NCBI RefSeq assembly: GCF_900167125.1
Contig: NZ_FUYC01000003.1
Coordinates: forward strand, 186,001-250,000
DNA length: 64,000 nt
From: Paucidesulfovibrio gracilis DSM 16080
GTDB taxonomy: Bacteria; Desulfobacterota; Desulfovibrionia; Desulfovibrionales; Desulfovibrionaceae
Reading direction: 5' to 3'
The position numbers and the translations under genes are program-made. This document shows positions 13,399 through 49,919 of this stretch, piece by piece. The notes under the pieces were generated by a model. The model did not search any database and was not told where the DNA came from. It was given only the letters and a program-made list of their open reading frames with translations. Each line of letters opens with the position of its first letter. Within the stretch, counting starts at the first letter, position 1.

Positions 13399-13707
13399 CT
13401 ATCCCTCCTGGCTCGCAGCCGGGTTGTCCAGTTTCACGGTGATGAACTTGAAAATGCCGTCAGCAATGCGAATCTTGCGTTCCAGCTCGGTCACCAACGC
13501 GCCCGGAGCCTCGTAGACCATGCGCATGTAAAAACCGCGGGTCTGCTTGTTGACGGGATAGGCGAGGGTACGCATGCCCCACTCGTCCATTTCCACGATT
13601 TTGCCTTCACCACCCTCGATGGTTTCAGAGAGGTTGGTGAAGATCTCGTTGCGACGCTCTTCCTCAAGCTCGGGAGAGAGCAGCAACAAGGTTTCGTAGT
13701 TCTGCAT
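13399..13707 (-). CDS. rpsF: Ribosomal protein bS6
   Basis: At 102 residues, with [17 protein letters not shown] at the start and [16 protein letters not shown] in the middle, this is ribosomal protein S6. An AAGGAGG site precedes the ATG. It is the first gene of rpsF-rpsR-rplI-dnaB and has its own promoter and a leader hairpin upstream, so the operon can be transcribed independently of purC. Confidence 0.96.
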
Positions 13708-13816: not shown

Positions 13817-14017
13817 TCAGGGCTTTTCATCCTTGGAAGTGGTGTTCGACCGGTCTGTGTCATCGGTGTTTTCGTTCGTTTCCGTGTCATCTTTCGGCGG
13901 CGTCCAGCCGCACTTGTTCGGAGCTGCTCAAGTGGGAATGCCCAGCCGGGGAAGAATAAACCGGTTGAAAACCATGACCACGGCGAACACGCCGAGGAGA
14001 ATAAGAATATCTTTCAT
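13817..14017 (-). CDS. Candidate membrane selenoprotein, 66 residues, UGA read as Sec at position 30
   Basis: The ATG at 14017 directly abuts the purC stop (TAG-ATG) and has GGAG seven bases upstream inside purC. Read conventionally, the gene encodes 29 residues (one hydrophobic helix, then FNRFILPRLGIPT) and stops at a TGA at 13928-13930. The frame stays open for 36 more codons to a second TGA at 13817-13819. They encode a hydrophilic tail that begins AAPNKCGW and is rich in Asp, Glu, Thr and Asn. A UGA between a membrane helix and a nearby Cys (U-x5-C), plus a hairpin at 13897-13911, matches a bacterial selenocysteine context. selC is present at 49826. The product would be a single-span protein with a redox-active Sec/Cys pair just outside the helix. 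An ordinary 29-residue peptide is the alternative. Confidence 0.6.
13897..13911 (-). promoter_or_regulatory. Candidate bacterial SECIS hairpin
   Basis: In the mRNA sense GCGGC-UGGAC-GCCGC forms a five-base-pair stem with a five-base loop. The loop begins 21 bases after the UGA at 13928-13930 and has G as its second base. Bacterial SECIS elements place a short hairpin, with a G in the first two loop positions, roughly 16-37 bases after the UGA. It lies inside the coding frame, as bacterial elements do. Confidence 0.5.
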
Positions 14018-14914
14018 CTAGGCTCCGACGGTTTGACCGGTAAGCCGTTCATATGCTTCAGCATATTTTTCAAAGGTACGCTGGAGCACGTTATCCGGGA
14101 TGTGCGGCGCCGGCGGTTGTTTATTAAAGCCGATTTCCGTCAGCCAGTCGCGCAGGTATTGCTTGTCGAAACTGGGCTGTCCCTGTCCGGGGCGGTAGCC
14201 GTCCATGGGCCAGAAACGAGAGGAGTCCGGGGTCAGCACTTCATCAATAAGGATCAGGCCATCGTCCGTAAGTCCGAATTCAAATTTGGTATCCGCGATG
14301 ATGATGCCGCGCTCACGAGCATAGTCCCTGGCCCGGCTGTAGATATCCAGGCTGACGCTCTGGACTTGTTGCATCAACTCTTTTCCGATCAGGTCCGTGG
14401 CCTTTGCCACGCTGATGTTCTCATCGTGGTCACCCAGATCTGCCTTGGTGGAAGGAGTGAAGAGAGGTTCCGGGAACATCTCGGATTCCTGCATGTCCTC
14501 TGGCAGGGCGTGACCGCAAAGCGTACCCGTGGCTTGATAATCTTTCCAGCCGGAACCGGTGATATAGCCGCGGACAATGCATTCGATGGGCAGTGGTTTG
14601 GCGCGTTTGGCCAAAACGCTTCGCCCTGCAAGGTCGTCTGCATGAGCCTGAAGTTCCTCGGGGTAGTCGGCGACGTCCGCGCTGATGACATGGTTGGGGA
14701 TCAGGTCCGTGAATCGTCGCATCCAGAACAGAGTGATCTGATTCAGGATCCAGCCCTTCATGGGAACCGGTTCCGGCATGATCACATCATAGGCGGATAC
14801 GCGGTCCGTGGTGACCAGGAGCAGACTGTCCTGCGAAATTTCATAGATATCACGAACTTTTCCGCGTGAAAGCAGCGGATAGTTTTTGATGTTGGTTTCA
14901 ATGACGGGTTGCAT
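14018..14914 (-). CDS. purC: Phosphoribosylaminoimidazole-succinocarboxamide synthase
   Basis: The 298-residue protein makes SAICAR from CAIR, aspartate and ATP in purine synthesis. It has LLSRGKVRDIYE, TTDRVSAYDVIMP, ECIVRGYITGSGWKDY and the C-terminal LIDEVLTPDSSRFWP, all diagnostic for PurC. Length fits the long form of the family. It overlaps hisD by 17 bases and is followed at zero spacing by the candidate selenoprotein gene. An AGAGGTG site precedes the start. Confidence 0.96.
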   Translation of the reverse strand: MQPVIETNIKNYPLLSRGKVRDIYEISQDSLLLVTTDRVSAYDVIMPEPVPMKGWILNQITLFWMRRFTDLIPNHVISADVADYPEELQAHADDLAGRSVLAKRAKPLPIECIVRGYITGSGWKDYQATGTLCGHALPEDMQESEMFPEPLFTPSTKADLGDHDENISVAKATDLIGKELMQQVQSVSLDIYSRARDYARERGIIIADTKFEFGLTDDGLILIDEVLTPDSSRFWPMDGYRPGQGQPSFDKQYLRDWLTEIGFNKQPPAPHIPDNVLQRTFEKYAEAYERLTGQTVGA

Positions 14915-49825: not shown

Positions 49826-49919
49826 TGGCGGAAGCGTACAGGAGTCGAACCTGCCCTGGACATCACTGCCCAACATTGGTTTTGAAGACCAAGCGCCACA
49901 CCGGTGACGAAACGCTTCC
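49826..49919 (-). tRNA. selC: tRNA-Sec (anticodon TCA), selenocysteine tRNA
   Basis: On the minus strand an eight-base-pair acceptor stem (GGAAGCGT with ACGCTTCC), a six-base-pair D stem, the anticodon loop CTTCAAA between TTGGT and ACCAA, a long extra arm, a T arm with GGTTCGACTCC and an encoded GCCA are all visible. The long acceptor, long D stem and TCA anticodon are unique to tRNA-Sec. The 94-base gene shows that the organism can insert selenocysteine at UGA, which supports reading the UGA at 13928. Confidence 0.96.

Follow-up and report, generated by a model that had tools for sequence, protein, structure and literature searches.

The window, the whole stretch of 64,000 nucleotides of Paucidesulfovibrio gracilis DSM 16080 that was analysed, carries on its minus strand purC, encoding SAICAR synthetase (positions 14018 to 14914; PF01259, E 3.7e-75), and, downstream of it, rpsF, encoding ribosomal protein S6 (13399 to 13707; PF01250, E 8e-27). 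Between these two neighbours, on the same strand, lies a reading frame of 66 residues plus a TGA stop codon (13817 to 14017), which its sequence and its homologues mark as the coding sequence of a small membrane selenoprotein. The ATG (14017-14015) stands directly 3' of the purC stop codon TAG (14020-14018), and a GGAG within the 3' end of purC, 5 nt upstream of the ATG (14023 to 14026, minus strand), is a candidate ribosome binding site. Codon 30 is an in-frame UGA (13928 to 13930, minus strand), assigned to selenocysteine (Sec) from its conservation in homologues, and 36 codons follow it up to a second TGA (13819-13817). A sequence-only reading of this DNA had proposed such a gene, and we confirmed its coordinates, the GGAG and the TGA at codon 30.

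The encoded protein reads MKDILILLGVFAVVMVFNRFILPRLGIPT-U-AAPNKCGWTPPKDDTETNENTDDTDRSNTTSKDEKP. A transmembrane helix is predicted for residues 2-21 (13955 to 14014, minus strand), probably oriented N-out/C-in, from single-sequence AlphaFold2 and from hydropathy and charge bias in the family. The juxtamembrane segment LPRLGIPT (13931 to 13954, minus strand), with the family's conserved P at -7 and G at -4, lies directly 5' of the Sec codon. Downstream, the published bacterial SECIS model identifies a hairpin, GCGGC-UGGAC-GCCGC (13897 to 13911, minus strand; 5-nt loop 13906-13902), and Cys36 (13910 to 13912, minus strand), at +6 from Sec, is a candidate partner thiol, judged by the Cys spacing in homologues. 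The tRNA-Sec gene (selC), which the earlier reading had also recognised in the window, was found at 49826 to 49919 on the minus strand by both ARAGORN and Rfam RF01852 (81.9 bits). selA and selB lie on the window's contig, about 45-48 kb beyond the window, and selD lies elsewhere in the genome, with an in-frame TGA of its own. The full set of selA, selB, selC and selD is thus encoded in the source genome; absence of selA, selB and selD had been named as an argument against the proposal.

The first protein search covered 59 related genomes and returned 24 places at E < 0.02, of which 23 were accepted; the TGA was found at the same place in 23/23. Both purC and rpsF were present in the 3-kb loci of 9 of these 23, purC alone in 5 and neither in 9. 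Alignment A1 comprised the 23 sequences L001-L020 and L022-L024, with L021 left out. Because the A1 profile carries Cys at the site, searching with it is not biased toward UGA. The profile was run against 247 order and 297 phylum genomes, some genomes being common to both, and gave matches at E <= 0.01 in 141/247 order genomes (41 of 51 genera) and 129/297 phylum genomes (96 of the 199 genera sampled), a few of them spurious. The best place of each remaining order genome and of 20 further phylum genomes was read later. Three order matches (G218, G228, and G239) proved to be chance matches, leaving 138 accepted genomes, a few of them weak, G145 above all; the 15-residue match in G218, a Sec-negative genome, lacks a helix ahead of its Cys. 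Two phylum matches (G421 and G425) were spurious, and the phylum places that were not fetched as loci are known by their TGA flag only.

A GTDB-wide scan used the pattern NRW[VI][LF]P[KR]LG, which stops before the site and so leaves its residue out. It yielded 45 matches, 40 of them confirmed as relatives, from Desulfobacterota and kin, two Spirochaetota (L177 and L196) and five Planctomycetota (L182, L187, L188, L197, and L199). The cultured Desulfuromusa kysingii DSM 7343 is among the carriers. The scan reaches relatives bearing that exact motif, and a diverged Cys clade may exist beyond it, outside the sampled phylum. The viral scan gave 28 pattern matches, with no relative among them. In all, about 260 distinct UGA-bearing sequences were collected (261 counted, at least two of them, L211 and L216, by chance). 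The survey of 119 sequences described below comprises the distinct sequences of the loci first fetched, with L101, L102, L106, and L107 left out. The substitution, folding-energy, protein-property, FmdB, covariation and SECIS-model statistics exclude the 107 loci read later; one of the two L010 copies is missing from the substitution, folding-energy, protein-property and SECIS-model sets, and L185, which contains an N, was omitted from the folding-energy and SECIS-model sets.

The residue at the site is nearly invariant. Among the first 119 distinct sequences it is UGA in 118 and Cys in 1, the UGA falling at codon 25-32 and exactly at codon 30 in 89/118. In the order, 137/138 accepted genomes have UGA and one has Cys, and the residue-agnostic GTDB scan found UGA in 40/40 relatives. 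Neither UAA nor UAG occurs at the site among the accepted homologues read, whereas the true terminators of the 119 genes are mixed (TAA 44, TGA 43, and TAG 32). With UGA in all but one and UAA or UAG in none, the site therefore does not behave like a terminator. No accepted homologue stops there, and the proposal that codon 30 encodes Sec, and is not a chance in-frame TGA, held throughout the order and at the GTDB loci. A reassignment of UGA to some ordinary amino acid across the host genomes would account for its being read through, but 43/119 of the same genes terminate with TGA, Cys occupies the site in one homologue and the presence of the gene tracks the Sec machinery, which leaves that explanation a negligible probability.

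We read all 28 places that were flagged as lacking TGA. In sixteen, the standard codon is UGA and falls right past the matched part; three are in-frame-UGA variants (L101, L102, and L215), and one is a true Cys homologue (L089). L106 and L107 were rejected as family members, being other Cys-rich small proteins without the LPKLG motif, and L210-L214 and L216 appear to be chance matches. L089, from genome G226, is the sole natural Cys form, 1 among about 260 distinct sequences, and its frame reads straight on. G226 retains tRNA-Sec and SelB, and UGA is present in G230 of the same genus (L046); the Cys version is useful for asking what replaces Sec. The three variants belong to genus g76 of the phylum set and represent a diverged second form, in which the in-frame TGA follows CPT in place of LPKLG; g76 genomes with this form also carry the standard one. 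Head-to-tail double copies were observed as well (L010/L150 in G030, L247 in G112, L274 in G211, L243 in G224, and also L218 and L258), the second copy beginning about 150-210 bp after the first and each having its own UGA.

The gene and the Sec machinery occur together. Within the order, where tRNA-Sec was called from matches better than 1e-10, 26/247 genomes fell short; SelB exceeded the cut-off in four of the 26, and G109, whose SelB is split over two contigs, was counted as negative, giving 22 Sec-negative genomes. An accepted copy is present in 138/225 Sec-competent and 0/22 Sec-negative order genomes (Fisher p 4e-9, kinship ignored). Over both surveys, 14 gene-bearing genomes lack a confident tRNA-Sec call, and SelB was over the cut-off in 14/14. 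Among the genomes of GTDB-scan loci that were tested it was over the cut-off in 8/9, the exception being G546 (L188), and the phylum survey contains 22 genomes with neither the tRNA-Sec call nor the gene. Many Sec-competent genomes are without the gene, so organisms that use Sec can dispense with it. In genus g46, 36/47 genomes have tRNA-Sec by the same cut and none has an accepted copy, which suggests that the gene is absent or was lost in one large genus.

The frame downstream of the UGA evolves as coding sequence, to judge from the substitutions. We compared 40 ungapped pairs, not independent of one another, that differ at 1-25% of bases. The codons after the UGA contain 118 synonymous and 65 nonsynonymous single-base changes, with an expected synonymous share of 0.20 without selection. 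Past the first 12 codons, beyond the hairpin, the counts are 56 and 32 (expected share 0.195), so that the pattern points to purifying selection there too. The coding-like base pattern noted earlier after the UGA is thereby substantiated, and the 36 codons, whose lack of conservation would speak against the gene, are conserved as codons in homologues. An SD-like motif stands at most 18 nt away at 98/119 homologues.

The same stretch also appears to carry an RNA signal. The bacterial SECIS model requires a loop of 3-9 nt with a G within its first two positions, a stem of 4-16 bp, a spacing of 16-37 nt and an MFE <= -7.5 (PMC13188914). The window hairpin conforms to this model, its loop starting 21 nt after the UGA; its stability is no better than that of synonymous randomisations (z +0.09). 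Over 150 distinct sequences, 125 conform, as against 42.5 in synonymous randomisation, 36.0 in codon shuffling and 27 in the upstream stretch of the same genes. The 25/150 that fail under MFE folding include L002, from the window's own genus. A first hairpin criterion was discarded as too loose (114/118 vs 76.5 expected). The folding energy lies below that of synonymous copies, with a mean z of -1.07, although singly only 21% of the 150 reach p <= 0.05; the upstream control, itself slightly structured, has a mean z of -0.31, with 11% at p <= 0.05.

Covariation was measured on all 47 sequences with U-x4-C and 500 shuffles. Stem cells are paired in 66.7% (shuffles 50.5%) and doubly changed paired cells number 51 (shuffles 25.8), neither value being reached in any of the 500 shuffles; the covariation score is 0.386 as against 0.186. 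Stem versions slid along the alignment were all worse on these three measures. The other two of the five measures did not rise above the shuffles: both-side-changed pairs numbered 6 (shuffles 5.2) and further pair types 16 (shuffles 15.2). The count to trust is that of all 47 rows and not that of subset A3, 30 of these rows picked with the hairpin in view, in which 83.3% of cells are paired and 35 are doubly changed (14.5 in shuffles). A4 (40 of the 55 sequences with the other two spacings) was left out, since from one subtype to another the stem shifts by three columns. The stem is encoded by differing amino acids in different lineages (SIEDRY, EVGSRP, and SPASRE), as selection at the RNA level predicts, and the conservation of C-x-W-x-P in the window's order is likely due in part to the hairpin encoded there.

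These data bear on a reading in which the product is a 29-residue hydrophobic peptide ending at the UGA, for instance of type I toxin kind, and the downstream conservation reflects an RNA element only. Taken alone, the N-terminal part looks like a small peptide of the membrane, and downstream of it there is indeed a conserved RNA hairpin. Against this, UAA and UAG are absent from the site in the accepted homologues read although the family's terminators are mixed, purifying selection acts on the downstream codons, including those past the hairpin, L089 has Cys and reads on, and the gene is missing from all 22 Sec-negative order genomes. Moreover, those hairpins that were read by eye are mostly trailed by A-rich sequence, with no T run. 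We therefore regard the peptide reading as highly improbable. As far as sequence goes, the selenoprotein claim is established by UGA recoding, the coding tail, the SECIS element and co-occurrence with the Sec machinery, and the product of the window gene is almost certainly a selenoprotein on these grounds.

The members of the family are 44-66 residues long (first 119 sequences). AlphaFold2, given the single sequence, folded residues 2-21 into a helix and, at low confidence, left the remainder without structure (mean pLDDT 64), in agreement with the single hydrophobic helix that had been noticed earlier, and the strongest 17-residue hydropathy has a family median of 2.39. The helix is closed by a common motif, (N/Q)-(R/K)-W-(V/I)-(L/F)-P-(K/R)-L-G-(I/V)-x-(T/G), which Sec then follows. 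Among 151 distinct sequences, P is found at -7 in 141, G at -4 in 142, and T or G immediately before Sec in 132. The mean net charge is -0.57 before the helix and +1.99 just after it; the charge is more positive after the helix in 146/151, or in 130/151 with the whole tail counted. This bias and the positive-inside rule suggest an N-out/C-in arrangement, and from charge and hydropathy we consider it likely that the protein is single-pass with Sec at the inner face of the membrane.

The tail is short and hydrophilic, and probably disordered. Its hydrophilic character had been described correctly, whereas the acidity ascribed to it is not general, the mean tail charge being +0.97 over 151 sequences. 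Likewise, the Cys six positions after the UGA is present in the window gene, but the U-x5-C spacing is not fixed across the family. The first Cys lies at +5, +6, and +7 in 47, 28, and 27 sequences, respectively (102/118), at +5 to +8 in 103/118, and farther off or nowhere in 15/118; 6/151 sequences have no Cys anywhere in the tail. In part of genus g8 (L090-L094, L209, and L217), the close Cys is gone and the protein has a GGCGG-type C terminus about 17-21 residues past Sec; in several cases such copies lie directly before an FmdB gene.

The genomic context is variable. Neighbours were clustered at 119 loci and a conserved operon was rejected, since no cluster exceeded 12 loci; by eye, the larger clusters resemble response regulators, sensor kinases and purC. 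The next downstream gene is on the opposite strand at 65 loci and on the same strand at 54. Upstream of the Planctomycetota copy L199, ORFs resemble, by eye, a sulfite-oxidase-type molybdoprotein and a sulfide:quinone-reductase-type flavoprotein. Because neighbours vary among lineages, the context does not reveal the function, FmdB excepted. It also weighs on the idea of a leader ORF that senses Sec status, read-through of its UGA controlling a neighbouring gene. The window ORF, starting directly at the purC stop codon between purC and the rpsF operon, would suit such a leader, but the neighbours differ widely by lineage (commonest cluster 12/119) and on either strand, and it is the protein motif that is conserved and not the context, which makes a Sec-sensing leader very improbable.

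The one context-derived functional lead, a modest one, is an FmdB-like zinc ribbon, a recurrent same-strand neighbour that is itself a zinc-ribbon protein and not homologous to the family. Its gene starts within -700..+500 bp, before or after the selenoprotein gene, at 16/157 distinct sites, a count for which the range was set after some neighbours had been seen, several sites are from one genus and kinship is ignored. In the outer flanks of the same loci it occurs once in 760 kb. Three of the neighbouring zinc ribbons were confirmed as PF09723. No FmdB gene lies next to the window's own gene. An earlier paper reports Sec-bearing FmdB homologues (PMC2398784).

The earlier reading had recognised no named family, and we likewise found none: the window protein matched 0 Pfam-A and NCBIfam families. 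The 23 members gave scattered weak matches only, the best in Pfam at E 0.0056 to an unrelated arabinan-synthesis family and the best in NCBIfam at 0.095, with no selenoprotein model among the latter, and the PDB profile search returned 0 matches. Table 1 of PMC9312934 and Table 1 of PMC13188914 (119 families/subfamilies, 2026 review) contain nothing of the same motif or build. Among the papers listed by literature searches, no title or abstract opening describes such a family; the families of Haft and Tolstoy 2025 are represented here through Table 1 of PMC13188914 and NCBIfam. In the absence of matches in Pfam, NCBIfam and PDB and from the published family tables, we therefore call this a new family, apparently a widespread one of tiny bacterial membrane selenoproteins. 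Like KCU-star, TsoA/TsoC/TsoX/TsoY and others in Table 1 of PMC13188914, it is a predicted bacterial selenoprotein without assigned function, but motif and build differ, judged by the table's descriptions.

Several other small proteins invite comparison. FeoB-associated-type small Cys-rich proteins share one N-terminal helix and a short Cys-bearing tail; L106 and L107, which match the family profile weakly (E 8e-4 and 4e-4), are presumably of this type, and they differ from the family in having neither the LPKLG motif nor a UGA. No FeoB-associated-type family appeared in the Pfam scan of the 23 members. The eukaryotic SELENOK and SELENOS are single-pass proteins of N-out/C-in topology with Sec in a disordered tail. 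They resemble the family in architecture, with no homology claimed, in being small selenoproteins of the membrane whose Sec lies outside the membrane domain, whereas the present family is bacterial, measures 44-66 residues and has Sec directly after the helix rather than near the C terminus. Compared with other bacterial selenoproteins, its distinctive traits are that Sec is almost never replaced and that there is no thioredoxin fold.

Taken as a whole, the best explanation is probably that of a widespread selenoprotein family composed of a membrane helix, Sec and a tail. About 29 N-terminal residues would form one transmembrane helix ending in the conserved motif, and Sec would be inserted at the UGA by SelB and tRNA-Sec with the aid of the SECIS hairpin about 21 nt downstream. 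From chemistry, the selenolate may attack a substrate, oxidised or sulfur-bearing, at the surface of the membrane. The intermediate may then be resolved by the nearby Cys (usually 5-7 positions after Sec) through a selenenylsulfide, and the protein could be reset by a thiol system of the cytoplasm, either thioredoxin or, as the neighbourhood hints, the FmdB-type zinc-ribbon protein. The 2026 review makes the case that a redox role is likely for most selenoproteins still uncharacterised (PMC13188914). Such a Sec/Cys redox relay is plausible on chemical reasoning but falls a little short of likely, and FmdB as its partner is doubtful. With the close Cys missing in 15/118 and no tail Cys in 6/151, a Sec-Cys relay could not be universal in the family.

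The serious rival is a selenoprotein without a relay of its own, in which Sec serves as a metal ligand or the protein belongs, as an accessory element, to a larger membrane complex. Accessory subunits are often small single-helix proteins, Sec is nearly invariant while the close Cys is sometimes missing, and a zinc-ribbon gene recurs as a neighbour; yet no partner complex is consistently encoded alongside, and a Cys at +5 to +8 is kept in most members. We consider this alternative possible, if tentative. A bolder version of the selenoprotein reading, in which minimal membrane selenoproteins of at least three phyla, with a SELENOK/SELENOS-like build and a practically irreplaceable Sec, present an inner-face selenolate that serves an FmdB thiol or metal partner, is rather unlikely.

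The family bears on how selenoproteins are searched for. Ordinary gene finders cut the gene short at the UGA, and methods relying on Cys/Sec pairs would miss it, given the near-absence of Cys homologues. According to the deep-Sep paper (PMC12013277), Cys homologues now seem to exist for every known selenoprotein. Candidates are retained there only if a Sec homologue is already known or if two or more of the top ten matches are Cys homologues; the authors warn that this homology filter may drop selenoproteins without Cys homologues. The present family would fail that filter. In a table of that paper, the number of new candidates is zero for both Salidesulfovibrio onnuriiensis IOR2 and Desulfomicrobium orale DSM 12838 (PMC12013277), two test genomes that seem to carry the family gene. 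Should the bolder version be true, it would contradict the published rule that Cys homologues of selenoproteins are abundant, and a common class would be missing from present counts of selenoproteomes. Confirmation of the family would bring in a membrane selenoprotein that is both common and very small, and with it a way to test directly why Sec persists where Cys fails.
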